Assembly: GCF_029952525.1 (NCBI RefSeq)
Contig: NZ_JASAOF010000003.1
Location: 248,001 to 312,000, forward strand
Direction of reading: 5' to 3'
DNA length: 64,000 nucleotides
DNA from: Saccharopolyspora ipomoeae
Lineage (GTDB): Bacteria; Actinomycetota; Actinomycetes; Mycobacteriales; Pseudonocardiaceae
Shown here in pieces: positions 30,214 to 47,023 of the stretch. Made by a program: the position numbers and the translations under genes. Position 1 is the first letter of the stretch. Each line of letters starts with the position of its first letter. Below the pieces are notes generated by a model. The model was not told the origin of the DNA. It saw only the letters and a program-made list of their open reading frames with translations, and did no database searches.

Positions 30214-30828
<615 letters not shown>

Positions 30829-30872
30829 GCCCCCACCCTAGTTCGCGTCCCGTCCCCACCCGGGTCACCACA

Positions 30873-30942
30873 GGACAGTTTTAGCCACAACTGTCCAGAC
30901 AAAACGGACATTGATCATGGGTGATTATGGCTAAAACCGTCC
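30873..30942. repeat. 70-bp structured repeat element, copy A
   Basis: Inverted repeat arms GGACAGTTTTAGCCA (30873-30887) and TGGCTAAAACCGTCC (30928-30942) enclose two smaller hairpins: TGTCC/GGACA around AGACAAAAC, and ATCA/TGAT around TGGG. Same length and 55 of 70 bases identical to copy B at 46859-46928 (ungapped comparison by eye). It lies 45 bp upstream of the YggC-like kinase start. Confidence 0.85.
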
Positions 30943-30991
30943 CCTGCCCACCACCACTCCCACCGCCACCACGACCCCACTCCCCACCCCG

Positions 30992-31082
30992 CGCGCGAAA
31001 ACCCCGGTTTTCATCGCGCGAAAACCCCGGTTTTCGCGCGACGAATGTTGCGGTTTTCGCGCGACGAATGTTGCGGTTTTTG
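30992..31082. repeat. 23-bp tandem array with GAAAACC/GGTTTTC palindromes
   Basis: Four consecutive units of 22-23 bp occupy 30992-31014, 31015-31036, 31037-31059 and 31060-31082. Units 1 and 2 contain GAAAACCCCGGTTTTC (near-perfect palindrome). Units 3 and 4 share CGCGACGAATGTTGCGGTTTT and differ only at the second-last base. It follows the EspG stop (31106, minus strand) by 24 bp. Its meaning is unknown. Confidence 0.8.
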
Positions 31083-31105
31083 ACAGGGGGATGGGTGATC
31101 GGGTG

Positions 31106-31960
31106 TCAGGAGAAGGTGGGGGTGGTGAAGTCGTGGGGTGTTGTTGAGCCGTGGGTGGTGGGGTCGTCCCAGACTTCGGTGAGGAGTTCTCGGGTGTAGG
31201 TGGCCAGGCGGGCGTTGTCGGCCGGGGCGATGGTGCTCCAGGCGCGGCCGTCGCCGCTGGGGCGGACGACGTGCAGGTAGCGGCCTCGGTCGGTGTCGTG
31301 GAAGGCGACGACCCGACCGGCGCGGTCCGGTTTGCCGCGACCGGGGTTGCCCTCGGCGCCGAACTGGCCGCGAATCCCCATGTTGTCGGCCATGTTCGCG
31401 ACGTCCGCGGCGTCGTCGTGGCCGATACCCAGGATCCGCAGCTCGTCGGTGAGCACCAGGGGCCCGCTGGCACCCGCGACTTCGGATGCCTTGCGCAGCA
31501 CGTCGTGGGGCAGGCTCACCGCCCGTCCCGGCCCGGGCGGCACGTCGCCGGCCACCGACACGGCTGCCTCCGCCAGCGAGCCGCCGCGGATCGGGGTCAT
31601 CTCGACCACGTCGCCGTCGACGACCGTCAGCAGCCCCTCACCACCGTTGGCGCAGGCCAGCGCGCGGATCGAGCGGTCCGCCCAGATCCGGACGTCGACG
31701 CTGCGCTGCGGCCGGTCCAGCAGGCCGAGCAGGTCGGCGAACTCGACCTCCACCCGATCCCGCTTCGCCTCGGCAAGGCGCTTGTGCCGCAACGACTCCC
31801 ACGCCTGCGCGACCAGTTCAGCGCGCTCGGTGAAGGTCCTGCCGGGGCTGGGCACGTCGAGGACGATGTGCCGCCGCGCGTCGAGTCCCGCCGCCTCGCA
31901 GACGACGTCGAACTCCAGGACCGACAGGGTGATCGACTCGGATTCGGCTCCAGGGCGCAC
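31106..31960 (-). CDS. ESX secretion-associated protein EspG
   Basis: A 284-residue EspG-family chaperone. EspG proteins bind PPE tips in the cytosol and deliver PE-PPE pairs to type VII (ESX) secretion. The sequence shows LSVLEFDVVCEAAGLDARRHIVLDVPSPGRTFTER at the start and YLHVVRPSGDGRAWSTIAPADNARL near the C-terminus, both typical of the family in Pseudonocardiaceae. It lies two bases after the PPE gene stop, so it is the last gene of a PE-like/DUF3558/PPE/EspG operon. No ESX core genes (EccC, EccD) occur in this window. Confidence 0.85.
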   Translation of the reverse strand: MRPGAESESITLSVLEFDVVCEAAGLDARRHIVLDVPSPGRTFTERAELVAQAWESLRHKRLAEAKRDRVEVEFADLLGLLDRPQRSVDVRIWADRSIRALACANGGEGLLTVVDGDVVEMTPIRGGSLAEAAVSVAGDVPPGPGRAVSLPHDVLRKASEVAGASGPLVLTDELRILGIGHDDAADVANMADNMGIRGQFGAEGNPGRGKPDRAGRVVAFHDTDRGRYLHVVRPSGDGRAWSTIAPADNARLATYTRELLTEVWDDPTTHGSTTPHDFTTPTFS

Positions 31961-31962
31961 CG

Positions 31963-33273
31963 TCAGTCCCGCTTCTCCGGTTCGTCGTCCCCGTCCTCAG
32001 CCCCGTCGTCGGCGGCGTCCTCGGCCTTCGGCTCGACGTGCCCGAGCACGGCGGGAGCGACCAACCGGTCGTCGTCGAACGGGGTTTCCTCGGCGGTGTA
32101 CTTGTTCTCGTGCTCGGCGTCCTCACCGGGCTTCTCGCCGCGCGTGGCCGCCGGCGACATCATCGACCCCGGCGCGGGCCTGCTGCCCGGAGTCCCGCCC
32201 GCGGCCTTGCCCGCCACGGTGTCACCCGGACCGCCGCCGATCGTCCCGCCGCGCGTCGCGGGAGCCTTCGGCTCGGCCCCCGGGACGACCTTGGGCCCGG
32301 CGGTCGCGGGGGCGCGGCCGCCGAGGGCCCGGCTGGCGGCGTACGCGCCGATCCCGGCCACGGCCGCGCCACCGGCGGCGACGCCGAGTACGGTGCCGGT
32401 GCTGATCCCGCCACCGGTGTCCGCGCCCGCCTGCGGGTCCGGCTCGGTGTCGAACTCGGCGGCGTGCTCGTCCTCGCCGTGATCCGGACGCTCTTCACCC
32501 GGACGCCGCTCACCGGGTCGCTGACCGGAAGGTGGTTGTGCCACAGGGGTTTTCGGATCTACCGGACGTTCCCCGCTGACCCGGCCACCGCCGACGCTGC
32601 CACCGCCGACCCGGCCGCCGACCACGGACCCGGAGACGTCCCCGGACCCGCCCGGAGCGGATCCGAACGATCCGATCCCTGCCGAGGGGACCGATCCGGC
32701 CGACGCCGCGGGCGCGACCACGGCCGCGGGCATCGTCGGCAGCGGCTGGTAGGCCTGCGCCTGCTCGACCGAGGTGTCGCGGTAGTTCGACAGCGCCGCC
32801 TGCGCGGCCTGCTTCTGCGCCTCGATCTGCTTGGCCTCCTGGTCGTAGTCGCTCTCGTACCCGAAAGCGCCTCCGGCCCACTCGAAGACGTTCTCCGACC
32901 GGCTGTGCCGCAGCTCCTCGGCGTTGGGCAGCGTGTGCCGCGCCGACTCGTACCCACCGGCCTGCGCGTCGACGCTGCTCGCCGACACCGCGAGCGGGTC
33001 GGGCGCGTCGCCGAGGGCCACGCTCTGCTGCCGGGTCGCCTCAGTCGCGAGACTTCCCGCGCTGCCCTCCCACTCGACCTGCAGCTTCGCGAGTTCGCGG
33101 CGCAGCGTGTCGTCGAGGTCGACGACGACCTGCACGCACTTGTCGAGCGCGCGCACGGCCCCCTGCATCGCCTGGGTGCCCTGACCCTGCTTGATCTGGG
33201 CGATCCACTGCTGCAGCTCGGGGATGTCCATCCCCTTGAAGCGGATGTCGCGGATCGGATCGATGTAGGTCAC
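31963..33273 (-). CDS. PPE-like type VII secretion substrate
   Basis: A 436-residue protein with a helical WXG100/PPE-like N-terminal domain (about 1-180; DIPELQQWIAQIKQG, a WEG turn at about residues 68-70 in VEWEGSAGSLA, and long helices up to ALSNYRDTSVEQAQAYQPLP). A disordered Gly/Ser/Pro/Ala-rich middle and C-terminal region follows with an acidic end (EPKAEDAADDGAEDGDDEPEKRD). The N-terminus reads MTYIDPIRDIRFKGMD rather than PPE. It is flanked by DUF3558 and EspG genes, the usual partners. It is expected to be exported as a heterodimer by an ESX machine encoded elsewhere. Low-complexity DNA is present at 32560-32700. Confidence 0.8.
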   Translation of the reverse strand: MTYIDPIRDIRFKGMDIPELQQWIAQIKQGQGTQAMQGAVRALDKCVQVVVDLDDTLRRELAKLQVEWEGSAGSLATEATRQQSVALGDAPDPLAVSASSVDAQAGGYESARHTLPNAEELRHSRSENVFEWAGGAFGYESDYDQEAKQIEAQKQAAQAALSNYRDTSVEQAQAYQPLPTMPAAVVAPAASAGSVPSAGIGSFGSAPGGSGDVSGSVVGGRVGGGSVGGGRVSGERPVDPKTPVAQPPSGQRPGERRPGEERPDHGEDEHAAEFDTEPDPQAGADTGGGISTGTVLGVAAGGAAVAGIGAYAASRALGGRAPATAGPKVVPGAEPKAPATRGGTIGGGPGDTVAGKAAGGTPGSRPAPGSMMSPAATRGEKPGEDAEHENKYTAEETPFDDDRLVAPAVLGHVEPKAEDAADDGAEDGDDEPEKRD

Positions 33274-33282
33274 GCCAGCCCC

Positions 33283-33897
33283 CTAGCTCTGAGCCTGCAC
33301 CGTGCTGACGACGGAATGCGCCGCCGTCTGGGCCTTCTCGCACATCTGGTCGTTGTTCATGGCGTTCGGCGTCTGCAGCTGCATGTTGATCCACACCGTC
33401 TGGCCCTGCGCCGCGTCGACGAACGCATCGCACCCGAGGCTCTCGCCGCCGTTGATCTGGGACTGCACGGCGCTGAAACCGTTGAGCGCGTAGACCTGCC
33501 GGGAACCCGGACTGGAGTTGATCTTGTCGAGGAACAGATCGATCGGCTCCGGCACGATGCGCACGCCGATCGCGAACCGCGCCGGACCGGTATCACCGAG
33601 GAAACCGCACCCGTTGTAGTTGTCGCCGTCCTTGATGACCGGCTGACCGCCCGCGACCTGCAGCGATCGCTGCTGCTCAGCGCTCAGCCAAGTGCACACG
33701 TCGTCGTCCTGCTTGCCCGCGACCGCCAGGTCCTTCGGTCGCGGCGGCAGCTTCACGTCCTCGTCGGCGGCGGGAGCGCTGCTGGGTGCCGGAGCCGGAT
33801 CGGGACCGTTCACGGTGCAACCGGTCAGGATCAGCAGAGCCGCGGCGACCGTCGTCGCAGCGGACCAGGTACGCACTAGCACCGGGGTCGTCCTCAC
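33283..33897 (-). CDS. DUF3558 lipoprotein
   Basis: A 204-residue DUF3558 protein, a lipoprotein family common in ESX-linked loci of actinomycetes. The signal peptide RTWSAATTVAAALLILTGC ends in the lipobox LTGC (Cys at about residue 27), then a Pro/Ala-rich linker. The mature domain starts near PPRPKDLAVAGKQDDDVCTWL. Two cysteine pairs (VCTWL, NGCGFL, GCDAFV, MCEKA) probably form disulfides outside the membrane. GTG start overlaps the stop of the PE-like gene by four bases. It ends ten bp before the PPE gene. The function is unknown. Confidence 0.85.
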   Translation of the reverse strand: MRTTPVLVRTWSAATTVAAALLILTGCTVNGPDPAPAPSSAPAADEDVKLPPRPKDLAVAGKQDDDVCTWLSAEQQRSLQVAGGQPVIKDGDNYNGCGFLGDTGPARFAIGVRIVPEPIDLFLDKINSSPGSRQVYALNGFSAVQSQINGGESLGCDAFVDAAQGQTVWINMQLQTPNAMNNDQMCEKAQTAAHSVVSTVQAQS

Positions 33898-34268
33898 TTC
33901 GCTCCTCGCGTCAGCTGGAAGGAGGCGCTGATCTCCTCGTCGGTGTAGCCGTACTGCTTGGCGGCCTCACCGAGCTGCTCCCCGAGCTTCTCGACGTTGT
34001 CGACGTACTGCATGAGCCTGTTGAAGTGCGAATCCTGGTTGCCCAGCAGGTAAGCCGTCCAGGTCGTCGCGGCGTGCTTGCTGACCTCGTCATCCCCGGG
34101 CGGGGTGACCTGCAGGCTGGCGGCGAGGCCGTACAGCCGCTCGCGCGCGTCCTCGGCCGCGGACAGGATGGTCTTGCGGACCTCGAGGACGTTGTCCTCG
34201 TTGACCGTGATGGTCTGCGCGGCCGCTCCCGAATCCGGCGCGGGAGGCGGCGGCACTGGCGTCGTCAT
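33894..34268 (-). CDS. PE-like/WXG100-type small helical protein
   Basis: A 124-residue protein, first gene of the PE-like/DUF3558/PPE/EspG operon. It has an N-terminal Pro-rich segment (TTPVPPPPAPDSGAAAQ), a long helical region and a conserved NQDSHFNRLMQYVDNVEKLGEQL. Near the C-terminus KQYGYTDEEI contains two overlapping YxxxD/E motifs, the export signal of type VII substrates. The frame opens at 34304, but ATG 34268 fits better. It is likely the PE-like partner of the PPE gene downstream (inference). No WXG motif is visible in this protein. Confidence 0.7.
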   Translation of the reverse strand: MTTPVPPPPAPDSGAAAQTITVNEDNVLEVRKTILSAAEDARERLYGLAASLQVTPPGDDEVSKHAATTWTAYLLGNQDSHFNRLMQYVDNVEKLGEQLGEAAKQYGYTDEEISASFQLTRGAK

Positions 34269-34397
34269 CGCGGAAACCCCCAGGTCGCGGCGGCATCTGA
34301 TCACCGGGTCGGGACCGACAGTAGCAGCGCCCGAAGACGCCGAGCACCGGGTTCGGCGAACTTCCCACCCCTATTCGCAACCGCGCATGCGACGTCC

Positions 34398-35078
34398 TCA
34401 GGGCTCCAGCCGATACCCCATCCCGGGCTCGGTCAGCAGGTGGCGCGGGCGGCTCGGGTCGGGTTCCAGCTTCCGGCGGAGCTGGGCGAGGTAGACGCGC
34501 AGGTAGTGCGTCTCGTTGGCGTACTGCGGCCCCCAGACCTCGTGGAGCAGCTGCTTCTGCGCCACGAGACGACCCCGGTTGCGGGCCAGCAGTTCCAGCA
34601 TTCCCCACTCGGTCGGCGTGAGGTGGATCTCGATGCCGTCGCGGAGGACCTTCTTCGCCGACAGGTCGACGGTGAAGGTCGCCGTCTCGACCACCGGCTG
34701 ATCGGCGTCGCCGGTGGTGCTGGCCCGGCGGACCGCGGCGCGCAGCCGCGCCAGCAGCTCGTCCATCCCGAAGGGCTTGGTGACGTAGTCGTCGGCCCCG
34801 GCGTCGAGCGCGTGCACCTTGTCGGTCGAGTCGGTGCGCGCGGACAGCACGATGATGGGAACCGTCGTCCAACCGCGCAGCCCGGCGATCACCTCGCTGC
34901 CGTCGATGTCGGGGAGCCCCAGGTCGAGCACGACCACGTCGGGTTTGCCGTCCCCGGCGGCGCGCAGCGCCGAGGCGCCGTCGACGGCGGTGAGCACCTC
35001 GTACCCGCGTGCGGAGAGGTTGATGCGCAGGGCGCGCAGCAGCTGCGGTTCGTCGTCGACGACCAGCACCTTCGTCAT
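34398..35078 (-). CDS. kdpE: KDP operon response regulator KdpE
   Basis: OmpR-family response regulator of 226 residues, receiver domain with DD at 8-9, phospho-acceptor D52 (VLDLGLPDIDG) and K of TKPFG, followed by a winged-helix DNA-binding domain (VDLSAKKVLRDG, LTPTEWGMLELLARN, YLRVYLAQLRRKLEPDPSRP). Pairs with KdpD. Immediately follows kdpD: the ATG abuts the kdpD TAG. Downstream the PE-like gene lies 129 bp away. Confidence 0.95.
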   Translation of the reverse strand: MTKVLVVDDEPQLLRALRINLSARGYEVLTAVDGASALRAAGDGKPDVVVLDLGLPDIDGSEVIAGLRGWTTVPIIVLSARTDSTDKVHALDAGADDYVTKPFGMDELLARLRAAVRRASTTGDADQPVVETATFTVDLSAKKVLRDGIEIHLTPTEWGMLELLARNRGRLVAQKQLLHEVWGPQYANETHYLRVYLAQLRRKLEPDPSRPRHLLTEPGMGYRLEP

Positions 35079-37613
35079 CTATTCCCCCTGTTCCGCCGCG
35101 GGCAGCGCGACCACGATCGTCAATCCGCCGCCCGGGGTGTCCTCCGCGCGGATGGTTCCCCGCATCGCGTCCACGAAACCCTGCGCCACGTTCAACCCGA
35201 GCCCGACACCGGCCGGTCCGGAGTCGCCGCGCTCGCCGTGCTCGCCGAGCCGCTCGAAGGGAGCGAACGCGGTGTCGGCGGCCCCGGCGGGAAGTCCCGG
35301 ACCGTGGTCGACGACCCGCAGTTCCACTCGCGCGGCGTGCTCGCTGGCGCTGACCCGGATGCGCCCTTCTTCCGGCCGCCCGTACTTGAGCGCGTTCTGC
35401 ACGACGTTGGCCACCACCCGCTCCAGCAGCCCGGTGTCGGCCCGGACGCGCGGCAGGCGTTCGGAGATGTCGACGTCGACGAGGTGCCGTCCGTCGAGCC
35501 CGGCCAACGCGCGGGCCACGACCTCGTCGTAGCCGACGGGGTGCAGCTGCGGGGTGACGGCTCCGGTGGCCAGGCGCGAGGAATCCAGCAGGTTGTCGAC
35601 GAGCTCGGTGAGCCGGTCGGCGGATTCCTCCACTCCCGCCAGCAGTTCGGCGGTGTCGTCGGGCGAGAGCCGCAGGTCGGGGGCGCGCAGGCTGCTCACC
35701 GAGGCCTTGATCGAGGCCAGCGGGGTGCGCAGGTCGTGGCCGACGGCCGACAGCAGGGCGGTGCGCAGCTCGTTGGCGTCGGCGCGGCGCTGGGCTTCGC
35801 GCGCGTCGTCGGCCATCCGCTGCTGCCGCAGGGCCAGCAGAGCCTGCCCCGCCGCGCCTTCCAGGACCACGCGGTCGGCGGCGGGAAGCGGCCGCTCACC
35901 GGCGCGGCGCAACGACAGGTGGGCGTCCTCGGTCACCTCGATGTCCACATCGGACTCATCGGGTCGCAGGCACGGGTCGACGCCGGTGCTGGCCGCGACC
36001 ATCCAGCCGCCCTCGGTGCGCTCCAGCAGCGCGACCGAGGTGAGGTTGAAGTTCTCCGCGACCTTCTCCAGCAACCGCGCCAAGGGGTCGGGATGGGTCA
36101 GCACTGTGCGCGCGTAGGAGGCGAGCAAGGCCGCTTCCGTGCCGGCGCGCGCCGCCTGCTCGGCCAGCCGCGCGGCGCGGTCGACGGTGAAGGCCACCAG
36201 CACCCCGACCACCATCATCGCCACCAGCATGATCACGTTCTCCGGATCGGCCACCAGCAGCGTGTAACGGGGCTCGGTGAGGAAGAAGTTCAGCAGCCCG
36301 CCCGCCAGCAGCGCGGCCGCGATGGAGGGCGCCATCCCGCCCACCATCGCCACCACGATCGTGGCCAGGAAGTAGCCGACGACGTCGGTGGACAACGACA
36401 CGCTGCTCGACGCGGTGCCGAGAACGGTGACCAGCGAAGGCAGCAGCGCGGCCAGCGCCCACCCCCACAGCCGGCGGCCCGGCGACAGCGGGCTGCGGGC
36501 CGGGCTCTTGGCCAGCCGCCGGGTTCCCGCCTCGTCGTGGGTGACCATGTGCACGTCGATCGGCCCCGACTTCTGCACAGTGGTGGCCCCGATGCCCTCG
36601 TCGAGCACCCGCGCCCAGCGCGATCGGCGGGAGGTTCCCACCACCAGCTGGGTGGCGTCGGCGGCGCGGGCGAACTCCAGCAGCGCCTCCGGCACGTCGT
36701 CGCCCACGACGGTGTGGAAGCTGGCGCCGAGCGCGTCGGCGACCTCGCGGGCCTTGGCCAGCGCGCGCGGTGACGCCCCGGCCAGGCCGTCACCGCGCAG
36801 CACGTGCACGCACTGCAGCTCCGCCCCGGCGCGGGAGGCGATCCGGCGGGCCCGGCGGATCAGGGTCTCGCTCTCCGGTCCGCCGGTCACCGCGACGACC
36901 ACGCGCTCGCGGGCCTCCCAGGTGGCGGTGATCTGCTCCTCGGCCCGGTAGCGGCGCAGCGCCACGTCGACCTGGTCGGCCAGCCACAGCAGTGCCAGCT
37001 CGCGCAGCGCGGTGAGGTTGCCGGTGCGGAAGTAGTTGCCCAGCGCGGCGTCGACCCGCTCGGCCGGGTAGACGTTGCCGTGGGCCATGCGGCGGCGCAG
37101 CGCCTGCGGGGTGATGTCGACCAGCTCGATCTGCCCGGCGCGGCGGACGACCTCGTCGGGGACGGTTTCCCGCTGCCGCACGCCGGTGATGGTCTCCACG
37201 ACGTCGTTGAGACCTTCGAGGTGCTGGACGTTGACCGTGGAGAGCACGGTGATGCCGGCGTCGAGGAGCTCGTCGACGTCCTTCCAGCGCTTGTCGTTGC
37301 GGCTGCCGGGCGCGTTGGTGTGGGCGAGTTCGTCGACCACGGCGACCTCGGGGGCGCGCGCGAGCATCCCGTCCACGTCGAACTCGGTCAGCGCGACTCC
37401 GCGATGCGTCACGGTCGCCCTCGGCAGCTCGTCGAGGCCGTCGAGCAGTGCCGCGGTCTTGGGCCGCCCGTGGTCCTCGACGAACCCGACGACCACGTCG
37501 GTCCCGCGCGCGACCCTGCGGTGCGCCTCGTTGAGCATCGCGTAGGTCTTGCCGACCCCTGGCGCCGCCCCGAGGTAGATCCGCAGCTCACCGCGCTTGC
37601 GCCCCTGCTCCAC
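35079..37613 (-). CDS. kdpD: Sensor histidine kinase KdpD
   Basis: Membrane sensor kinase (844 residues) for potassium limitation and osmotic or ionic stress. Layout: N-terminal KdpD domain with Walker-like GAAPGVGKTYAML (15-27) and a USP-like domain, GTSRRSRWARVLDEGIGATT, four membrane helices in the middle, a GAF-like part, then DHp with HDLRTPLASIKAS (phospho-acceptor His) and the HATPase domain (NVVQNALKYGRPEEG, DHGPGLPAG, GVGLGLNVAQGF). Starts with GTG preceded by AGGAG. It is separated from kdpC by a 344-bp region full of palindromes, so it may form its own transcript with kdpE. Confidence 0.95.
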   Translation of the reverse strand: MEQGRKRGELRIYLGAAPGVGKTYAMLNEAHRRVARGTDVVVGFVEDHGRPKTAALLDGLDELPRATVTHRGVALTEFDVDGMLARAPEVAVVDELAHTNAPGSRNDKRWKDVDELLDAGITVLSTVNVQHLEGLNDVVETITGVRQRETVPDEVVRRAGQIELVDITPQALRRRMAHGNVYPAERVDAALGNYFRTGNLTALRELALLWLADQVDVALRRYRAEEQITATWEARERVVVAVTGGPESETLIRRARRIASRAGAELQCVHVLRGDGLAGASPRALAKAREVADALGASFHTVVGDDVPEALLEFARAADATQLVVGTSRRSRWARVLDEGIGATTVQKSGPIDVHMVTHDEAGTRRLAKSPARSPLSPGRRLWGWALAALLPSLVTVLGTASSSVSLSTDVVGYFLATIVVAMVGGMAPSIAAALLAGGLLNFFLTEPRYTLLVADPENVIMLVAMMVVGVLVAFTVDRAARLAEQAARAGTEAALLASYARTVLTHPDPLARLLEKVAENFNLTSVALLERTEGGWMVAASTGVDPCLRPDESDVDIEVTEDAHLSLRRAGERPLPAADRVVLEGAAGQALLALRQQRMADDAREAQRRADANELRTALLSAVGHDLRTPLASIKASVSSLRAPDLRLSPDDTAELLAGVEESADRLTELVDNLLDSSRLATGAVTPQLHPVGYDEVVARALAGLDGRHLVDVDISERLPRVRADTGLLERVVANVVQNALKYGRPEEGRIRVSASEHAARVELRVVDHGPGLPAGAADTAFAPFERLGEHGERGDSGPAGVGLGLNVAQGFVDAMRGTIRAEDTPGGGLTIVVALPAAEQGE

Positions 37614-37760
37614 GACTCCAGTCTCCTACTGCCCGCTGCTATTAACGACGATCATCACCCACTACCAACGCCCACGCCGCACCGGCACCGGCACCGGTAC
37701 CGGCACCGGGGAGGGATCCTCCCGACCTGGTGGGAGGAATCCTGTCACGACATGAGGAGC

Positions 37761-37780
37761 GAAGTTTTCATGAAAACTTC
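37761..37780. repeat. Palindrome GTTTTCATGAAAAC, copy 1
   Basis: Perfect 20-bp palindrome GAAGTTTTCATGAAAACTTC, centre between 37770 and 37771. It shares its core with two further copies at 37873-37886 and 37921-37952. Confidence 0.85.
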
Positions 37781-37872
37781 CCCACCCCGAAGGGGGAATC
37801 CCGTCCCGGGTCGAGGCGGAAGTTCCCACGACACCCCGATTCCGGAGGAACTCCTGTCCGGAGGTGGGGAAC

Positions 37873-37886
37873 GTTTTCATGAAAAC
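37873..37886. repeat. Palindrome GTTTTCATGAAAAC, copy 2
   Basis: 14-bp perfect palindrome. It is flanked by GGAAC on the left and, after a 5-base interruption (CTCCC), GTTCC on the right, so the arms are partly degenerate. Confidence 0.8.
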
Positions 37887-37920
37887 CTCCCGTTCCGGAG
37901 GGACCTCACGTCTGATAATG

Positions 37921-37952
37921 GGTGGGGAAGTTTTCATGAAAACTTCCCCACC
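37921..37952. repeat. 32-bp perfect palindrome abutting kdpC
   Basis: Left half GGTGGGGAAGTTTTCA (37921-37936) is followed directly by its reverse complement (37937-37952), no loop. It ends 5 bp before the kdpC stop at 37958, so it could act as the kdpFABC terminator or as a protein site. Copies 1 and 2 share its core. Confidence 0.85.
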
Positions 37953-37957
37953 TCAGG

Positions 37958-38569
37958 TCAGCGGGTGGCCGCGTGGACCGCTGCGTTGAGGGTGGTGACG
38001 TTGACGATCCGGGGTGAGAGGAAACCTCCCTCCTCGTTGTCGGAGACGAGGGCCTGGACCTGCGTGAAGGGGAGTCCCGTCACGCGGGCGACGCGCGGGG
38101 CTTGGAGGGCGGCGTAGGCGGAGCTGATGTGCGGGTCGACTCCGCTGGCGGAGGCGGTGACCGCGTCGGCCGGGACCGCGTCGAGGACGACTCCCTCGCG
38201 GGCCGCGATCGCCGCGCGGCGCTCCTGGACGACAGCGAGGAGCCCTTCGTCGAAGCCGCCGAGGTTGGTGCCGCCGGAGGTGGCCGGGTCGCCGGGACCG
38301 AGGGAACCTTCCGCCGACGCCGACGGGCGGGTGTGGAAGAAAGGATCCCTTGCTCCGCTCGCGGGCACGGGGTCGATCCCGATCAGCGACGAACCGACGA
38401 CGCGGCCGTCGGCGACGATCTGCGAGCCCTCGGCCCTCCCCGCCAGGCCCGGCAGGTGGCCGACTCCCCAGATCGCCAGCGGGTAGCCGACGCCGAGCAG
38501 GACCGTGGCCACCAGCAGGAGCCGGAGACCGGCCCAGGTCTGCCGCAACAACGCGTTCACTCCCTTCAC
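37958..38569 (-). CDS. kdpC: Potassium-transporting ATPase subunit KdpC
   Basis: Single-span KdpC subunit (203 residues) of the high-affinity K+ transporter. It has an N-terminal membrane helix ([22 protein letters not shown]) and the family region FHTRPSAS...SGGTNLG near 100. [22 protein letters not shown] near 145 is the typical C-terminal signature. GTG start overlaps the kdpB stop by four bases. A perfect palindrome lies 5 bp past the stop. Confidence 0.95.
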
Positions 38570-40620
38570 CCGATTCCGGGGACGAAACGGATCACCAGGT
38601 CGATCAGCCAGATCCCGGCGAACGGCGCGACCACCCCGCCCAGGCCGTAGACCAGCAGGTTCCGCCGCAGCAGGACGGCCGCGGTGGACGGGCGGTAGCG
38701 GACTCCGCGCAGCGCCAGCGGGATCAGCGCGACGATGATCAGCGCGTTGAACACCACCGCCGACAGCACCGCCGAGTCCGGGCTGGCCAGTCGCATCACG
38801 TTCAGCGCGTCGAGCTGCGGGTAGATCGCCACGAACAGCGCGGGCAGGATCGCGAAGTACTTGGCCAGGTCGTTGGCGATGCTGAAGGTCGTCAACGCAC
38901 CGCGGGTGATGAGCAGCTGCTTGCCGATCTCGACGATCTCGATCAGCTTCGTCGGATCCGAGTCGAGGTCGACCATGTTGCCGGCCTCCTTGGCGGCGGC
39001 CGTGCCCGTGTTCATCGCGACCCCGACGTCGGCTTGGGCGAGGGCGGGGGCGTCGTTGGTGCCGTCGCCGGTCATGGCCACCATCCGCCCACCGGCCTGC
39101 TCGGCCTTGATCAAGGCCATCTTGTCCTCGGGCCGGGCTTCGGCGAGGTAGTCGTCCACCCCGGCCTCGGCCGCGATCGCGCGGGCGGTGAGCTCGTTGT
39201 CCCCGGTGATCATCACCGTGCGGATGCCCATCGCGCGCAGCTCGGCGAAACGTTCCCGCATCCCCGGTTTGACCACGTCGGACAACCGGATCACGCCCAT
39301 CACCCGGTCGTCCTCGGCGATGACCAGCGGTGTCGCACCGGCCGCGGCGATCTCCTCGGCGCAGCGCACGACCTGATCGGGAAGTTCCCCGACCTGCTCC
39401 GCGACCGCGCCGGTGGCTCCCTTGCGGATGCGGCGGCCGTCGAGGTCGATGCCGCTCATCCGGGTCTGCGCGGTGAAGGGAACCTTCCGCGCACCGACCT
39501 CGGCACCGACGGGACCTTCGGGCAGTCCGAACTCGGCGGCGCAGAAGGCCACCACGCTGCTGCCCTCCGGCGTGGGGTCGGCGAGGCTCGACAGGCGGGC
39601 GACGTCCGCGAGCTGCGCGGGCGTGACGCCGTCGACGGGGACGATTTCGGTGCAGCGCCGGTTGCCGAAGGTGATGGTCCCGGTCTTGTCGAGCAGCAGC
39701 GTGTCCACGTCACCGGCGGCTTCCACCGCGCGACCGGACTTGGCCAGGACGTTGCGCTGCACGAGCCGGTCCATGCCCGCGATGCCGATCGCCGACAGCA
39801 GCGCACCGATCGTGGTGGGGATCAGGCACACCAGCAGCGCGGTCAGGGTGGTGACCTCGATGAGCGACCCGGAGTAGGCCGCCATCGGCTGCAGGGCGAC
39901 CACCGCGAGCAGGAAGATGATCGTCAACGTGGACAGCAGGATCGTCAGCGCGATCTCGTTGGGCGTCTTCTGCCGCTGCGCACCTTCGACGAGCGCGATC
40001 ATCCGGTCCACGAAGGTCTCGCCCGGCGCGGCGGTGATGCGCACGACGATCCGGTCCGACAGCACGGTGGTGCCCGCGGTGACGGCGGAGCGGTCGCCTC
40101 CTGATTCGCGGATGACGGGGGCGGATTCGCCGGTGATGGCCGACTCGTCGACGGTCGCGATGCCCTCGACGACGTCGCCGTCGCCGGGGATGGTCTCGCC
40201 CGCCTCGACCACGACGTGGTCGCCGACTGCCAGTGCGGTGCCGGGAACCTTCCGCTCACCGCCCTCGACGAGCTTGCGGGCGACGGCCTCGGTCCTGGTG
40301 CGCCGCAACGATTCCGCCTGCGCCCGACCGCGTCCCTCGGCGACGGCCTCGGCGAGGTTGGCGAACAGCACCGTGAACCACAGCCACGCGGCGACGGCGA
40401 TGGCGAAGGCGCTCGGGGAGAACGCGGCCAGCACTGTGGTGAGCACCGAACCGGCCCAGACCACGAACATCACCGGGTTGCGCAGCTGGTGCCGCGGGTC
40501 GAGCTTGCGCAGCGCCTCGGGCGCGGAGGTGAGCAGTTGTCGTGGCCGGAAGGTTCCCGCTGCGGCGCGCTTGGGCGTCGTGATGGGAACGTCGAGATCG
40601 GGTTCGAGGGTGGTGGTCAT
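38566..40620 (-). CDS. kdpB: Potassium-transporting P-type ATPase subunit KdpB
   Basis: Catalytic P-type ATPase subunit of KdpFABC, 684 residues. Phosphorylation site D311 in DKTGT (311-315), TGES at 163-166 (site of the inhibitory phosphoserine in E. coli KdpB), and [20 protein letters not shown] in the P-domain, all intact. Starts at the ATG at 40620 overlapping the kdpA stop by four bases; stop overlaps kdpC. The reading frame is open upstream into kdpA up to 41784 but that is antisense-like shadow of kdpA. Confidence 0.96.
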
Positions 40621-42263
40621 GCCAGGGCCTCCGCGATCGGGCCGAGAGCGAGCGCGGGCAGGAACGTCAGCGCCGCGACGAGAACGACCGTGCCGCCGAG
40701 CAGGCCGGCGAACAGCGGTCCGGTGGTGGGCAGGGTTCCGGCGGTGGCGGGAATCCGCTGCTGCTGCGCGACGCAGCCGGCGAGCATGAGCACCGCCAGG
40801 ATCGGCACGAACCTTCCCAGCAGCATCGCGATGCTCAGCGCGACCTGGAAGAACGGGCTGGTGACGGTGAGTCCGGCGAAGGCGCTGCCGTTGTTGTTGC
40901 CCGCTGAGGCGAACGCGTAGAGCACTTCGGAAAGACCGTGCGCGCCGGTGTTGTTCAGCGCGTCGCGGGTGGCGGGAAGCGCCATCGCGAGCCCGGCGCC
41001 GAGCAGCACGACCGTCGGCATCGCCAGCACCGACAGGGCGGCGGCCGTCACCTCGCGGCGGCCGAGCTTCTTGCCGAGGTACTCCGGTGTGCGGCCGACC
41101 ATGAGACCCGCGAGGAACACGGCGATCACCGCGAGCACGAGGATCCCGTAGAGCCCGGCTCCGACGCCTCCGGGCGCGACCTCGCCGAGGAGCATGGTGA
41201 GCAGCACGGTCCCGCCACCGAGCCCGGTGAAGCTGTCGTGCATGGCGTTGACCGCTCCGGTGGAGGTCCCGGTCGTGCTCACCGCCCACAGCACCGAGGC
41301 GTCGATGCCGAAGCGCGCCTCCTTGCCCTCCATCGCGGCTCCGGCGGCCAGGGCGGCGGGCCCGTTGGGGTGCGCCTCGGCCCACCAGGTCACCGCCAGC
41401 ATCGCCGACCACAGGGTTCCCATCACCGCGAGCAGCGCGTGGCCCTGCCTGCGGTCGCCGACCAGGACGCCGAAGGTGCGGGTCAGCGACACGGGGATGA
41501 CCAGCAGCAGGAAGTTCTCCAGCAGGTTGGACGCGCCGCCGGGGTTGGACAGCGGGTGCGCGGAGTTGGCGTTGAGCACACCGCCGCCGTTGGTGCCGAG
41601 CTCCTTGATCGCCTCCTGGCTCGCGATCGGCGCGGTGGCGATGGTGTGCGCCTGCCCGTCGAGCCCGGTGACCTCGATGCCGGGCGCGAAGCTCATCGCC
41701 ACGCCGAGCGCGATCAGCACGATCGCGGCCGCGGCGGCGACGGGCACCAGGACGCGGGTGCAGCCGCGGGTGATGTCGACCCACACGTTGCCGATCCGTC
41801 CGGTCCCGTCACCGGTGAAGCCGCGCACGAGGGCGACCGCCACGGCCATGCCGACCGCGGCCGACAGGAAGTTCTGCACGGTCAGCCCGGCCATCTGGAC
41901 GCCGTGGCCGAGGACTTCCTCGGGCGCGTAGGACTGCCAGTTGGTGTTGGTGACGAAGCTGACCGCCGTGTTGAAGGCCATCTCCGGCGGCACCGCGCCG
42001 CGCCCGAGGTTCAGCGGCAACAGCGGTTGCAGCCGCTGCATCGCGTGGAGCAGGGCGATGGAGGCCATCGAGAGACCGAGCACGCCGGCGGCGTAGCTGG
42101 TCCAGCGCTGGCGCGCGGTGGGGTCGACGCCGACCAGGCGGTAGACGATCTTCTCGATCCGCCAGTCGGTTTCGCTCGTGTAGACGCGAGCCATGTAGTC
42201 CCCGAAGGGCTTGTGCGCGATCGCGAGGGCGGCGACGAGCAGGCCCGCTTGCAGCAACAACAT
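40617..42263 (-). CDS. kdpA: Potassium-transporting ATPase subunit KdpA
   Basis: K+ channel-like subunit of KdpFABC, 548 residues, about ten membrane helices. Selectivity-filter and P-loop segments are recognisable: [32 protein letters not shown] and [15 protein letters not shown] (the last is the typical [10 protein letters not shown]). The ATG overlaps the kdpF stop by one base (TGATG), so the whole run kdpF-A-B-C is translationally coupled. Confidence 0.96.
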
Positions 42264-42358
42264 CAGAACCTCTCCGGGCGGACGAGCGCGACGAACAGGT
42301 ATCCGATGAGCAGCAGCGCCAGCACTCCGCCGGCGGCGTTGGCGATCACGACGCTCAC
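42263..42358 (-). CDS. kdpF: KdpF small membrane subunit
   Basis: 31-residue single-helix peptide (start GTG 42358) of the KdpFABC complex: SVVIANAAGGVLALLLIGYLF then VALVRPERF, with the conserved ALxxPERF end. GGAG lies about eight bases upstream of GTG. It stabilises the complex in E. coli. A longer frame upstream to 42490 has no homology. Its GTG overlaps the stop of a further tiny ORF (42355-42438) by four bases. Confidence 0.9.
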   Translation of the reverse strand: MSVVIANAAGGVLALLLIGYLFVALVRPERF

Positions 42359-42438
42359 AACCGCTCCAAACCGCGCAGCAGCAGCGCCAGGATCAGGAAT
42401 CCGCCGACCAGCAACGCCGCGAAGGCGAGATCGACCAC
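42355..42438 (-). CDS. Tiny membrane peptide upstream of kdpF
   Basis: A 27-codon ORF starting with GTG at 42438, with GAGGAG eight bases upstream. It encodes VDLAFAALLVGGFLILALLL and ends RGLERL. It has one hydrophobic helix of about 18 residues, acidic start and basic end like a single-span subunit. Its TGA overlaps the kdpF GTG (GTGA), so it is translationally linked to kdpFABC. Similar small ORFs are known in front of kdpF in some actinobacteria. A role in the Kdp complex or as a leader is an inference. Confidence 0.6.
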   Translation of the reverse strand: MVDLAFAALLVGGFLILALLLRGLERL

Positions 42439-42743
42439 GACCGGTTCTCCTCTCGGGTTTTCTTCCTCGTGGTCCAGCCAAGTCCTTCACGAGGTGCGCG
42501 GTCGAGGCCCATGACGAGTCCTTGACGCGGCGGTGGGAGGCCTTGACGCATTTTTGATGTGAGTCGCTTTTCTTCCGCTTTCGGTGAATCTGAACGATTT
42601 GTGAGTGGGTGACTTCACTCGGTTAGTTGGTTTCACCGATGCAACGATCTCGTTACTCTCGCTAACAAGCCGTGGCGCTGAAATCTTCTGGAAAAGCGCC
42701 TGAAAACGGTAGGAAACAAACGAGATTGGGGATACGTCCGGAA

Positions 42744-44570
42744 ATGTGCGGAATCTCCGGCTGGATCGACTTCCAGCGCGACCTGACCCAGCACCGCGCC
42801 ACCGTCGACGCCATGTGCGAGACCATGACCTGCCGCGGCCCGGACGCCGGGGACACCTGGGTCAGCGCGCACGCCGCGCTCGGGCACCGGCGACTGGCCA
42901 TCATCGACCTGCCCGGAGGCGCGCAGCCGATGGAGGCCGAGAGCGGCCAGGTCGCCATCGTCTACAGCGGTGAGGCCTACAACTTCACCGAGCTGCGCGA
43001 CGAACTCCGCCGCCGCGGCCACCGCTTCGACACCGACAGCGACACCGAGGTCGTGCTGCACGGCTACCTCGAATGGGGCGCGCAGGTCGCCGAGCACCTG
43101 AACGGCATGTTCGCCTTCGCCGTCTGGGATTCCCGCGAGGACAAGCTGCTGCTCATCCGCGACCGGATGGGCATCAAGCCGCTGTACTACTACCCGACCG
43201 AGGACGGCGTGCTCTTCGGCTCCGAGCCCAAGGCCATCCTCGCCAACCCGCTGGCCGAGAAGGTCGTCGACGCCGACGGCATGCGCGAGCTGTTCGGCAT
43301 GGTCAAGACCCCCGGCCAGGCCGTGTGGTCGGGCATGCGGGAGGTCGAGCCGGGCACGATCGTCACCCTCGACCGCAAGGGCCTGCGCGAGCAGGCCTAC
43401 TGGAAGCTGCAGGCCACCGAGCACACCGACGACCAGCAGTCCTCGGTGTCGCACGTCCGCGAGCTCCTCGACGACATCGTGCAGCGCCAGCTCGTCTCCG
43501 ACGTGCCGCGCTGCGTGCTGCTCTCCGGCGGCCTGGACTCCAGCGCCATCACCGCGCTGTCCGGACTTCACCTGGCCAAGAGCGGCGAGCAGGTGCGCAG
43601 CTTCGCGGTCGACTTCCTCGGCCAGACCGAGAACTTCGTCCCGGACCCGATGCGCGCCACCCCCGACGGGCCCTACGTGCGCGACGTCGCCGAGCACGTC
43701 GGCTCGCAGCACCAGGACATCGTGCTGGACCCCGACACCCTCGCCGACCCCGACGTGCGCCGCGCGACGGTGCAGGCGCGCGACTTCCCGATGGGCCTGG
43801 GCGACATGGACCAGTCGCTGTACCTGCTGTTCAAGGCGATCCGGCAGCACTCCACGGTGGCGCTGTCCGGTGAGTCCGCCGACGAGGTCTTCGGCGGCTA
43901 CAAGTGGTTCCACGACCCGGACGTGCGCGCGGCCGACACCTTCCCGTGGCTGGCCGCCGTGCAGAGCCAGGGCCAGGGCTACGACATGCTCGACCCCGAC
44001 GTCGCCGCCACGCTCGACATCCCGTCGTTCATCGCCGACGGCTACCGCACCGCGATCGGCGAGGTCCCGACCCTCGACGGGGAGAGCGACCTGGAGCGGC
44101 GGATGCGGGAGATCTGCTACCTGCACCTGACCCGCTTCGTGCGCATCCTGCTCGACCGCAAGGACCGGATGAGCATGGCCGTGGGCCTGGAGGTGCGCGT
44201 GCCCTTCTGCGACCACCGCCTGGTCGAGTACGTCTTCAACACCCCGTGGTCGCTGAAGACCTTCGACGGCCGCGAGAAGAGCCTGCTGCGCCACGCCACC
44301 GCCGACACGCTGCCCCGGTCGGTCGTCGAGCGCGTCAAGAGCCCGTACCCGTCGACCCAGGACCCCGAGTACGCGGCGGTGCTGCAGCGCCAGGTCCGCG
44401 ACCTGGTCAAGGCCGACAGCCCGGCGCTGTCGCTGCTCAACAAGCAGTGGGTCGCCGAGGCCGTGGAGCAGGACCCGGCCCACATCGAGATGGCCGCCCG
44501 CTACACCTTCGAGCGCGCCCTCGACCTGGCGATGTGGTTCGACATCCACAACCCCACGGTCAAGCTCTGA
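42744..44570 (+). CDS. asnB: Asparagine synthetase B (glutamine-hydrolysing)
   Basis: Class II glutamine amidotransferase that makes asparagine from aspartate, ATP and glutamine. 608 residues. Cys2 after Met is the nucleophile (MCGISGW). RGPD at 31-34, GHRRLAIIDL at 47-56; YSGEAYN at 74-80 has Ser where E. coli AsnB has Asn in NGEIYN. PP-loop SGGLDSS at 261-267 followed by SGESADEVFGGYKWF. Start at ATG 42744 fixed by MCGIS; the frame opens at 42672. It is divergent from the kdp operon across about 250 bp of low-G+C DNA that holds both promoters. Ends at the terminator at 44567-44622. Confidence 0.95.
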   Translation: MCGISGWIDFQRDLTQHRATVDAMCETMTCRGPDAGDTWVSAHAALGHRRLAIIDLPGGAQPMEAESGQVAIVYSGEAYNFTELRDELRRRGHRFDTDSDTEVVLHGYLEWGAQVAEHLNGMFAFAVWDSREDKLLLIRDRMGIKPLYYYPTEDGVLFGSEPKAILANPLAEKVVDADGMRELFGMVKTPGQAVWSGMREVEPGTIVTLDRKGLREQAYWKLQATEHTDDQQSSVSHVRELLDDIVQRQLVSDVPRCVLLSGGLDSSAITALSGLHLAKSGEQVRSFAVDFLGQTENFVPDPMRATPDGPYVRDVAEHVGSQHQDIVLDPDTLADPDVRRATVQARDFPMGLGDMDQSLYLLFKAIRQHSTVALSGESADEVFGGYKWFHDPDVRAADTFPWLAAVQSQGQGYDMLDPDVAATLDIPSFIADGYRTAIGEVPTLDGESDLERRMREICYLHLTRFVRILLDRKDRMSMAVGLEVRVPFCDHRLVEYVFNTPWSLKTFDGREKSLLRHATADTLPRSVVERVKSPYPSTQDPEYAAVLQRQVRDLVKADSPALSLLNKQWVAEAVEQDPAHIEMAARYTFERALDLAMWFDIHNPTVKL

Positions 44571-44622
44571 CCTGAAAAACCCAGGGGGAGCCGTCTTCCG
44601 CGACGGCTCCCCCTCAGGTCAG
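44567..44622. terminator. Bidirectional terminator between asnB and the histidine kinase gene
   Basis: Inner stem GGGGGAGCCGTC (44584-44595) with GACGGCTCCCCC (44602-44613) and outer arms CTGACCTGA (44567-44575) with TCAGGTCAG (44614-44622). The outer arms contain both genes' stop codons. A loop of 8 bases (AAAACCCA area) separates outer and inner stems on the left. Confidence 0.75.
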
Positions 44623-46056
44623 GGGGAGCAGCAGGCGGAACGTGCTGCCGCCGCCGGGCGCGGCGTGCAGTTCGAGGCGACCGTTGTGGGCCTGGGCGAG
44701 GGCCGCCGTGATGGCCAGGCCCAAGCCGCTGCCACCCGCCGCCCTCGTCCGGCCGTCGTCGACGCGGTAGAAGCGGTCGAAGATCCGCGCCGCGTGCTCC
44801 GGCGGGATGCCCGGGCCGCTGTCGCTCACCGACACCGCCGCCATCCGCGTTCCCGGGCCCGGCTCGGCGCCGACTGCCGCGATCGCCCGGTCGCTCGCGG
44901 CTTTGTGGCCGACGTCGACGGTGATCGGCGAGCCCGCGGGCGTGTGCACCAGAGCGTTGTTGACCAGGTTGGTCAGCACCTGCCGCAACCGCGCCCCGTC
45001 ACCGAGAACGCGCAGGTCATCAGGGCTGTTCAAGGTGATCTCGCGCTCCGGGTCGCGAGCCCGGGCGTCGTGCACCACGTCGTCGGCCAGCGGCACCAGA
45101 TCCAGCTCGACCAGGTCCGCGGTGCGCTCCCGGTCCAGCCGGGCCAGCAGCAGCATGTCCTCGACCAGGCCGCCCATCCGCACCGACTCCGACTCGATGC
45201 GGCCCATCATCATCCGCACGTCCTCCGGCCGGTGCTCCTCGCTGCGCCGGTAGAGCTCGGCGAAACCGCGGATCGAGGTCAGCGGCGTGCGCAGCTCGTG
45301 CGAGGCGTCGGCGACGAACCGGCGCAACCGGTCCTCGGAGCGCTCCCGCTGCTGCAGCGCGTCGGTGAGCCTGCCCAGCATCGTGTTCAGCGCCTCGCCC
45401 AACCGGCCCGTCTCCGTGCTCGGATCCTGATCCGGCACTCGACGATCCAGCTGACCTGCGGCGATGGCGTCGGCGGTGTCCTCGATGCGCGCCAGCGGGC
45501 GCAGGCTCAGCCGCACCGTGACCGCCGCGGCCAGCGCCAGCACCAGCAGCACGGCCCCGCCCACGGCCAGTTCGATGACCACCAGCTGGTGCACGGTGGC
45601 CTGGGCGGTGCCCAGCGACAGCGCCAGCACAGCGGTCCGCCCGTCCGGCAGCGCCACCCGGCGCACCCGCCAGTCGGTGCCGCCCGCCTTGTCCGGCACG
45701 GTGCCCACCTCCGGGCCCCGCTCGGGGTTGAGCACCACCGGGCCGCCGGCCTCGCCGTCCTCGGCACCGATCATGCCGCCCAGCTGCGCACCGGAGGAGT
45801 CGAAGATCAGCACCCGGAACTCGGTCGGCAGCTCGCCGCGCGTCGGCCCGTCGGGATGCCTGCGCGCCGGGTCAGGAGGCGGCATGCGCCCCTCCTCCCA
45901 GGGCATCGACATCTCGGCCAGCCGGTCGTCGGTGCGCTCCACCAGCGACCGGTTGAGCAGCGCGACGCTGGTGAAGCCCATCAGCAGCAGGCCGACGACC
46001 AGGGCGCCGACCAGCACGAGCACCAGCCGCCCGCGGAGCGTGCGCAGGAACGTCAT
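44614..46056 (-). CDS. Two-component sensor histidine kinase
   Basis: 480-residue membrane sensor: N-terminal helix (LVLVLVGALVVGLLLMGFTS, about 11-30), a 120-residue extracytoplasmic domain with PEEGRMPPPDPARRHP-type disordered part, second helix (about 158-182), HAMP (SLRPLARIEDTADAIAAG), DHp with H253 in FVADASHELRTPLTSIRG and the HATPase (NLVNNALVHTPAGSP, DSGPGIPPEHAARIFDRFY, GGSGLGLAI). Similar to MprB/CutS-type kinases. The frame opens at 46209 but MTFLRTLRGRL at 46056 is the sensible start. Forms an operon with the response regulator upstream, five bases apart. Signal unknown. Confidence 0.92.
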   Translation of the reverse strand: MTFLRTLRGRLVLVLVGALVVGLLLMGFTSVALLNRSLVERTDDRLAEMSMPWEEGRMPPPDPARRHPDGPTRGELPTEFRVLIFDSSGAQLGGMIGAEDGEAGGPVVLNPERGPEVGTVPDKAGGTDWRVRRVALPDGRTAVLALSLGTAQATVHQLVVIELAVGGAVLLVLALAAAVTVRLSLRPLARIEDTADAIAAGQLDRRVPDQDPSTETGRLGEALNTMLGRLTDALQQRERSEDRLRRFVADASHELRTPLTSIRGFAELYRRSEEHRPEDVRMMMGRIESESVRMGGLVEDMLLLARLDRERTADLVELDLVPLADDVVHDARARDPEREITLNSPDDLRVLGDGARLRQVLTNLVNNALVHTPAGSPITVDVGHKAASDRAIAAVGAEPGPGTRMAAVSVSDSGPGIPPEHAARIFDRFYRVDDGRTRAAGGSGLGLAITAALAQAHNGRLELHAAPGGGSTFRLLLPLT

Positions 46057-46061
46057 CGGCC

Positions 46062-46778
46062 TCACCGGTTCTCGGGAGGCAGTCGCAGGACGTAGCCGAC
46101 CCCGCGGATGGTGTGGATCAGCGGCGGCGACACCGAGTCGATCTTGCGCCGCAGGTAGCTGATGTAGGACTCGACGATCCGGGAATCCCCGCCGAACTCG
46201 TAGTTCCACACCCGGTCGAGGATCTGCACCTTGCTGACCACCTTCTCGGCGTTGATGAGCAGGTAGCGCAGCAGCTTGAACTCCGTCGGCGAGAGGCTGA
46301 CCAGCTGCCCGGCCCGGCGGACCTCGTAGGTGTCCTCGTCGAGCTCCAGGTCCTGGTAGCGCAGCGTCGCGCCGTCGTCCTGCTCGGGACGGACCCGGCG
46401 CAGGATCGCGCGCAGCCGCAGCACCACCTCGTCCAGGCTGAACGGCTTGGTGACGTAGTCGTCGCCACCGGCGGTCAAACCGGCGATGCGGTCCTCCACC
46501 GCGTCGCGCGCGGTGAGGAACAGCACCGGGACGGTGTTGCCGCCGCCGCGCAGCTCGGTGGCCACGGAGAAGCCGTCGCGGTCCGGCAGCATCACGTCCA
46601 GCACCACGATGTCGGGGTGGAACTCGGCGGCCGCCCGCAACGCCTCCGCGCCCGTGGCCGCGCTGCGGACCTCGAAGCCGCTCAGGCGCAGCGCCGCGGC
46701 CAGCAGTTCCAGGATGTTCGGCTCGTCGTCGACGACGAGCACTCGCGCTCCGTTGCTCTCCACCACGCCCTCCAGCAT
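46062..46778 (-). CDS. OmpR-family response regulator
   Basis: 238-residue regulator paired with the kinase at 44614-46056: DD 17-18, phospho-acceptor D61 (VVLDVMLPDRDGF), K of TKPF, and a winged-helix DNA-binding domain (YEVRRAGQLVSLSPTEFKLLRYLL, RIVESYISYLRRKID). The ATG at 46778 has AGGGAG seven bases upstream; the frame runs to 46838. Similar to MprA/TcrA type regulators. Its upstream spacer holds repeat element B. The adjacent GT39/GT2 genes may be part of its regulon (inference). Confidence 0.92.
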   Translation of the reverse strand: MLEGVVESNGARVLVVDDEPNILELLAAALRLSGFEVRSAATGAEALRAAAEFHPDIVVLDVMLPDRDGFSVATELRGGGNTVPVLFLTARDAVEDRIAGLTAGGDDYVTKPFSLDEVVLRLRAILRRVRPEQDDGATLRYQDLELDEDTYEVRRAGQLVSLSPTEFKLLRYLLINAEKVVSKVQILDRVWNYEFGGDSRIVESYISYLRRKIDSVSPPLIHTIRGVGYVLRLPPENR

Positions 46779-46858
46779 CCCCGAGCTCCCTGGGAAAACC
46801 CTGGAAACCCGCTGAACACCTCGCCCCGTGTCGCCCATCGCTCGAAGGGGTGAACCGT

Positions 46859-46928
46859 GGACGGTTTTAGCCAGAATTGACCGGACAAAACGGTCACTCG
46901 CCCCGGGCGATTCTGGCTAAAACTGTCC
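46859..46928. repeat. 70-bp structured repeat element, copy B
   Basis: Arms GGACGGTTTTAGCCAGAAT and ATTCTGGCTAAAACTGTCC, extended by CCGTGG/CCACGG to 46855-46932 (23-bp arms with one mismatch). Inner hairpins TGACC/GGTCA around GGACAAAAC and TCGCCC/GGGCGA. Same length as copy A at 30873-30942. Located 81 bp upstream of the response regulator start and 95 bp after the GT39 stop on the minus strand. Confidence 0.85.
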
Positions 46929-47023
46929 ACGGCCCCCGAAACGTCCCTCCCGGAAGCCCCGGGGTGGCCGGATTGCCGCCGCAATCCGCTGACCGGAATA
47001 CGGCGGCAATCCGCCTCACCGGC

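Follow-up and report, generated by a model that had tools for sequence, protein, structure and literature searches.

A 70-bp palindromic repeat of Saccharopolyspora, probably a non-autonomous mobile element with a bias to gene 3' ends

We examined a 64,000-nt stretch of the genome of Saccharopolyspora ipomoeae (contig NZ_JASAOF010000003.1, positions 248,001 to 312,000; hereafter the window, numbered from its first letter). A first-pass annotation of these letters had pointed out two similar intergenic stretches of 70 bp, which we call copies A and B, and on re-reading the sequence we found their coordinates and arms to be as it claimed. Both are members of a repeat family, of which this genome has about 80 or more elements scattered between its genes. 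We argue that the family is probably an unnamed, non-autonomous palindromic mobile element of Saccharopolyspora, similar to miniature inverted-repeat transposable elements (MITEs) or to the REPINs that are built from repetitive extragenic palindromic (REP) sequences, and that it is biased to gene 3' ends. The two copies and their surroundings are as follows.

30873-30942, + strand: copy A, 70-bp palindromic element (86.9 bits against our covariance model R1; copy A is itself among the model's 84 sequences)
30873-30896 and 30919-30942, + strand: the 24-nt arms of copy A, with the loop at 30897-30918
30863-30872, no strand: left flank of copy A, GGTCACCACA, matching 6 of 8 positions of the weak target motif TCRSCAGK/TSRSCAGK
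30943-30952, no strand: right flank of copy A, CCTGCCCACC, agreeing with the beginning of the weak motif MCTGSYGA
30214-30828, - strand: gene left of copy A, PRK/uridine kinase-like P-loop protein (PF00485), its start about 44 bp from the element
31106-31960, - strand: gene right of copy A, EspG-family protein (PF14011), its stop about 163 bp from the element
46859-46928, + strand: copy B, 70-bp palindromic element (80.1 bits against R1; copy B is in the model as L001)
46859-46882 and 46905-46928, + strand: the arms of copy B, with the loop at 46883-46904
46062-46778, - strand: gene left of copy B, response regulator (PF00072, PF00486); the start at 46778 is our choice, and the listed open reading frame starts at 46838
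47024-50464, - strand: gene right of copy B, mannosyltransferase-like protein (PF13231, PF24878), its stop about 95 bp from the element

With up to one mismatch allowed, the arm core GTTTTAGCCA occurs four times in the window; 0.33 occurrences are expected, and all of 100 shuffles gave fewer than four. The folds of copies A and B, on all four strands, are better than each of 200 shuffles (z from -4.6 to -9.3). The first-pass annotation had proposed a genome-wide search for further copies, and a pattern of two exact arms separated by a gap of 26-56 nt occurs at 77 places in the S. ipomoeae genome (G000), while the reversed pattern, our control, occurs at none. The arm-to-arm length is constant, with 40 nt between the ten-base arm cores in all 50 places listed. 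S. flava (genome G350, of the same genus; the strain is DSM 44771, which is named among the matches listed) has 87 exact-arm copies, and the other 388 of 390 family genomes have none. Matching blocks of S. ipomoeae and S. flava are 85-97% identical, mostly 93-96%. Some S. flava forms with exact arms are 49 and 71 bp long, by the same measure as the 60-bp form, and there are further spacings of the ten-base ends of 24, 61, 98, and 125.

More distant copies are found with the covariance model. At E 0.01, R1 has matches in 12 of 22 genomes of the genus, four of them with a single weak match. Relatives with other arms (TCCCAGTTTTAGTC... and GGGCGGTTCTGGTCC...) occur in genomes G347, G349, and G346, and most of those that we fetched are 70 bp long. 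There were 42 model matches in G349 and 14 in G354, but these are not copy numbers, because both strands of one palindrome are counted and the best 150 candidates were scored. Outside the genus, a hairpin model had no match in 140 family genomes under stricter filters. A palindrome with CAGTTTTGCC-like arms lies inside a repeat of about 228-263 bp in G355, G345, and G352 (L150, L151, L161, L167, and L172) and is perhaps a more distant branch of the family. The arm pattern alone also matched three stretches of viral contigs and other organisms (12 of 71 among the matches listed); in both groups the inner sequence varies and the spacing is mostly different, and by eye we judged these matches to be due to chance.

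Two other palindromic repeats accompany the family. One, with an AAAACC..GGTTTT core, adjoins copy A at 30998-31085; its core occurs 7 times in 224 kb of the S. ipomoeae genome, 12 times in 240 kb of S. flava, and not at all in 260 kb of G347. The other is a shorter palindrome, GTTTTCATGARAAC, with three copies in the window (at 37764, 37873, and 37930) and with 11, 19, and 2 copies in the same three samples. Some S. flava copies of the shorter palindrome carry GGACAGTTTT, which is an end of the 70-bp family.

The 70-bp unit is a near-perfect inverted repeat with two 24-nt arms, a 22-nt loop, and ends that mostly read N3-CAGTTTT. Among S. ipomoeae and S. flava copies, conservation by column gives a 70-bp core, and the columns outside it are weakly conserved. 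Alignment A2 holds 84 distinct copies; four of 87 (L031, L050, L072, and L073), which have unusual inner sequences, were left out, and copy A was added. Columns 6-15 of A2 are invariant because the copies were selected by their exact arms. In this alignment, 95.4% of cells are paired in one 24-bp stem that encloses a 22-nt loop, as compared to 88.8% and 79.8% for two inner helices. Alignment A3 compares species and has 18 rows: 14 of the 32 loci L143-L174, L175, and 3 S. ipomoeae copies (of the 5 G346 loci 3 were omitted, as were 15 from other genomes). Across species, the 24-bp stem is 94.2% paired and the inner helices 72.2% and 66.7%. Both sides have changed in 12 of the 24 stem pairs, and there are 54 such cells, as compared to 15.8 in shuffles. 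The A3 loci were found by the hairpin model, which favors paired copies, but this selection does not explain the variety of stem pair types across species.

The first-pass annotation had taken pairing that persists despite base changes as a sign of selection on a folded three-way junction, either in an RNA or in a MITE/REP-like mobile element. For the 24-bp stem, pairing is indeed kept. The three-way junction does not survive as the structure of the family: we reject it on the pair counts of the inner helices, as compared to those of the stem. One change that had suggested it, T to A with A to T in the first inner stem, is real in copy B but exceptional: of the 84 distinct copies, 29 leave the same pair unpaired, while it is U-A in 50, U-G in 3, A-U in 1, and C-G in 1. 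A regulatory RNA with a three-way junction would agree with that one compensatory change and with the folding of copies A and B on the + strand, where each shows two inner hairpins. Nevertheless, besides the poor retention of the inner helices, there is no orientation bias in tandem spacers, where 21 copies lie with the genes and 18 against them, which argues against a strand-specific RNA. Also, Rfam has no match at gathering score in the window (copy B gave microRNA-hairpin matches below gathering score only). So we consider such an RNA extremely unlikely, while the 77 exact-arm copies support the other proposal, a dispersed palindromic element.

The clearest traces of movement are in G347. 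There, 59 places match one subfamily pattern and, as counted from the listing, 22 of these are identical across all 70 nt. Another 18, by the same count, share one sequence among themselves in which the arms fail to pair at the inner end. Together, these two sets imply that the whole unit was copied, as opposed to the arms merely being corrected. In the first 20 G347 copies that we fetched, identity ends at the 70-bp border, and most copies have unrelated flanks: 41 of 58 copies have no 330-nt flank that is similar to another copy's (E 1e-5). Target duplications are absent from the 58 flank pairs at widths of 2 and 4-9 and were seen once at width 3. The flanks do carry a weak inverted motif, TCRSCAGG on the left and CYTGCYGAGG on the right, without covariation between left and right. 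The motif at S. ipomoeae and S. flava flanks, TSRSCAGK, is much like it, although the outermost bases of the elements differ. Complementarity between the flanks, which could signal a hairpin target, is not in excess in G347 (p of at least 0.11 at each of 15 positions); at S. ipomoeae and S. flava flanks there is a small excess at a few positions, for which we give no p-values.

Ten G347 copies are one end of a larger repeated unit, and the opposite end is again an element arm. The far end reads TCCCAGTTTTAG in six of these units and is a near variant in four; the base four before it is C in 10 of 10, and CA is found there in 6 of 10, as in the flank motif. None of their outer flanks matches another's. 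The larger units have nearly the same ends. In our view, nothing else points as clearly to the ends as what determines the unit that moves. What is joined to the 70-bp element in these units is a repeat of about 200 bp with inner hairpins (L275 199-470, L284 185-470, and eight more G347 loci).

Where do the copies lie? With a crude GC-based gene caller, we classified 95 copies: 47 are in convergent spacers, 39 in tandem spacers, 9 in divergent spacers, and none inside genes. So the first-pass observation that both copies sit upstream of minus-strand gene starts is not general. The 406 background spacers include 100 convergent, 206 tandem, and 100 divergent ones, so convergent spacers are enriched (odds ratio 3.0, p 5e-6) and divergent spacers are depleted (odds ratio 0.32, p 8e-4). 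These p-values are optimistic because orthologues in S. ipomoeae and S. flava were counted twice and because the gene caller is crude. For 83 of the 86 copies in convergent or tandem spacers, a gene's 3' end lies within 100 bp, a figure with no distance control behind it.

This context invites another explanation: the hairpins could be host transcription terminators or stabilisers of 3' untranslated regions, kept at their sites because a hairpin works there, while recombination between copies and template switching between arms make the sequence uniform. The enrichment in convergent spacers, the depletion in divergent ones, and the nearness to 3' ends are in its favor, and it would also account for arm pairing that persists while arm sequence changes and for the sharing of sites between S. 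flava and G347, which is above chance (see below). However, scans of 30700-31200 and 46700-47100 found no U-tract terminator at copy A or B; the one terminator-like site, at 31060-31075, is outside both copies and at chance level. Furthermore, selection on pairing alone would not be expected to yield exact 70-bp identity with sharp borders and unrelated flanks, or to amplify the mismatched-arm form to 18 copies. And a bias to 3' ends is also common among tolerated mobile elements. We think that this explanation is unlikely, although it is far from outlandish.

If the family is mobile, what moves it? REPINs are moved by REP-associated tyrosine transposases (RAYTs, of the Y1 type), and the family resembles REPINs, as described in excerpts from PMC3116915 and PMC3733652: it is similar in size, palindromic, and intergenic, its sequence populations are species-specific, and it lacks target duplications. 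Also, G349 and G354 carry relatives of the element along with one match each to the Y1 domain (PF01797), which is present in 9 of 22 genomes of the genus. But PF01797 has no match in the three copy-richest genomes (S. ipomoeae, S. flava, and G347), in a search that had matches in 5 of 14 control genomes, and this rules out a resident RAYT there. The most Y1-rich genome of the genus, G351, with 19 matches, has no element match. No GTAG or CGTC tag is conserved at either end of the 84 aligned copies, whose ends are mostly GGACA...TGTCC, with CGTCC at the right end in a minority only. A lost or diverged RAYT is possible, but overall it is very improbable that the element is a REPIN or REP moved by a RAYT.

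Another candidate is an insertion sequence (IS) of the IS5 type, in which case a 975-bp unit in G347 would be the autonomous parent and the 70-bp form a MITE derived from it by deletion. Two G347 units do contain an IS4/5-family DDE transposase (PF13340, PF01609) and are bounded by element ends, and a similar junction adjoins the left arm in the ten larger units. However, the transposase block has inverted ends of its own (GGGGTC.TTTCA), and within the arm a short TTA/TTAG repeat flanks it. The block is identical in both units while the remaining parts of the elements differ, as expected if the IS had entered two different elements. Finally, the transposase has no match at E 1e-20 in S. ipomoeae, S. 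flava, G349, G352, or G354, and three weaker, partly fragmentary matches in G346. As the two IS copies are identical in differing elements and have no match in S. ipomoeae or S. flava at E 1e-20, we conclude that this IS is not the mobiliser in those two species; as a parent, it is an improbable candidate. We read it instead as an IS that uses the palindrome as a landing site.

In G347, two different 70-bp elements have the IS4/5-family element in an arm, at one and the same point (L235 10365-11339, L299, and L301, of which L235 and L299 are the same place), and this looks like target-specific insertion into the palindrome. Yet another G347 element contains an IS481-like element within an arm (family read by eye; L208, about 5400-6500), apparently with a 6-bp ACTAAA duplication.

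Many of the sites are old. In 224 kb of S. ipomoeae sequence that includes the window, 7 of 8 places detected by the model share their spacer with S. flava (in one case, this is a cluster of a shorter palindrome). The site of copy A is also occupied in S. flava, but by a copy that is inverted and has a different loop. For copy B, the S. flava spacer fails to align and we found no copy there, yet the corresponding spacer of G347 does contain an element. In the stretch that matches between S. flava and G347, there are 14 model places in G347 (one weak, one split by an IS, and one at an edge) and 11 in S. flava (three weak), and 7 spacers are shared. If 14 and 11 sites are placed at random in the 111 spacers, 2.3-2.5 are shared on average, and at least 7 were shared in 36 of 50,000 draws weighted by length and in 53 of 50,000 weighted by length and gene context. 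At six of the shared sites, which we drew out, the copies are identical at 34-45 of 70 positions and have different arms; four of the six G347 copies have TCCC-type ends.

Copies can also differ in orientation at the same site. Of 25 site pairs between S. ipomoeae and S. flava, 3 are opposite, and one of these 3 is identical at 70 of 70 positions. (L002/L122 was off register by one base in this comparison, and a separate alignment gave the same orientation.) By our reading, the S. flava and G347 copies at L194/L071 and at L208:5337/L209:13824 are opposite as well. The 17 S. ipomoeae/S. flava pairs that we aligned were selected because both sides had a copy, and two of them (L003/L057 and L024/L119) have no anchor; the 224-kb stretch and the S. 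flava/G347 stretch are less biased comparisons.

Several observations weigh against a mobile element. We found no transposase that depends on the element's ends. Among the differences between S. flava and G347 that we examined, none is a clean empty site, and the spacers align poorly. Besides the 7 of 8 sites in common with S. flava, 7 of 14 G347 sites in the compared stretch are occupied in S. flava, so copies that moved recently may have replaced others at old sites, and recombination could also give this. Two S. ipomoeae copies that are 1 kb apart (C46:167156 and 168228) have a common left flank and nearly the same loop, which is the outcome that gene conversion would produce. Nor did unpaired arms lead to an autonomous partner. 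Among the first 100 arm places listed for S. ipomoeae, 15 are unpaired, of which 5 are model matches, 9 look like decayed 70-bp copies, and 1 hits a contig end; the 4 unpaired arms in the G347 DNA that we fetched are IS insertions or larger units.

Even so, a non-autonomous mobile element seems to us the probable explanation. We propose that the unit inserts exactly and leaves no target duplication. Its targets would be spacers, for the most part at gene 3' ends, with the weak palindromic motif TCRSCAGK on the left and MCTGSYGA on the right. An enzyme that acts on the ends would move the units. Copies would be kept for a long time at many sites, would be homogenised within a species, and could flip in place. 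As a likely side effect, neighboring transcripts would carry a strong hairpin at their 3' ends. A more speculative idea, which we would bet against, is that the sites are stable docking sites at gene 3' ends, where a dedicated recombinase, distinct from RAYTs and from known MITE parents, would exchange, flip, and renew the 70-bp palindromic cassette throughout a species; its ends would then change in concert while the sites and the hairpin persist. If such an exchange enzyme exists, then it would be a new kind of inserter, able to place a 70-bp cassette at gene ends without duplication. In any case, an actinomycete genus gains an abundant family of palindromic repeats, the three richest genomes of which have no RAYT, and the family is a tractable case of repeats that stay at the same sites and yet turn over in sequence and in orientation.

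How does the family compare to known systems? The first-pass annotation knew of no named family, and neither Rfam nor the open-licence literature gave us one. In that literature, we found no description of a palindromic or intergenic repeat, REP, or MITE family in Saccharopolyspora, nor, under Actinobacteria MITEs, Streptomyces palindromic repeats, or concerted evolution, of a family like this one. In the REPIN/REP-RAYT system, as here, the repeats are short, palindromic, intergenic, and hairpin-forming, with many copies in species-specific populations, and some REP families sit within palindromic targets, according to part of PMC3733652. On the other hand, our three main genomes have no Y1 transposase and the element has no GTAG/CGTC tag. 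Also, a REPIN consists of two REPs and a spacer, while the Saccharopolyspora element is one continuous 70-bp palindrome.

MITEs such as Correia, RUP, and others, to go by a portion of PMC10969869, are likewise non-autonomous, with terminal inverted repeats, a preference for spacers and 3' ends, nested insertions, and variants of several lengths with common ends. Our family has terminal inverted repeats and many dispersed copies, and at 70 bp it is too short to encode a transposase. It differs from MITEs in that there is no target duplication (in G347), no parent element was found among the copies that we inspected, and the whole unit is palindromic.

The enterobacterial repetitive intergenic consensus (ERIC) has a fixed length of about 127 bp and no known mobiliser. 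Like our element, it is an imperfect palindrome that is intergenic and varies in copy number between taxa, as portrayed in a section of PMC10969869. ERIC is unrelated in sequence and in length and is found in Enterobacteriaceae and Vibrionaceae, while in Saccharopolyspora the arms differ by species at shared sites. As for flipping, in the minute inversions of plastid hairpin loops, the sequence between two paired arms flips in place; here, the flip occurs in a dispersed family of bacterial repeats. Because the tests for a RAYT, for the tag, and for target duplication all failed, we file the family beside MITEs and REPINs, as a member of neither.

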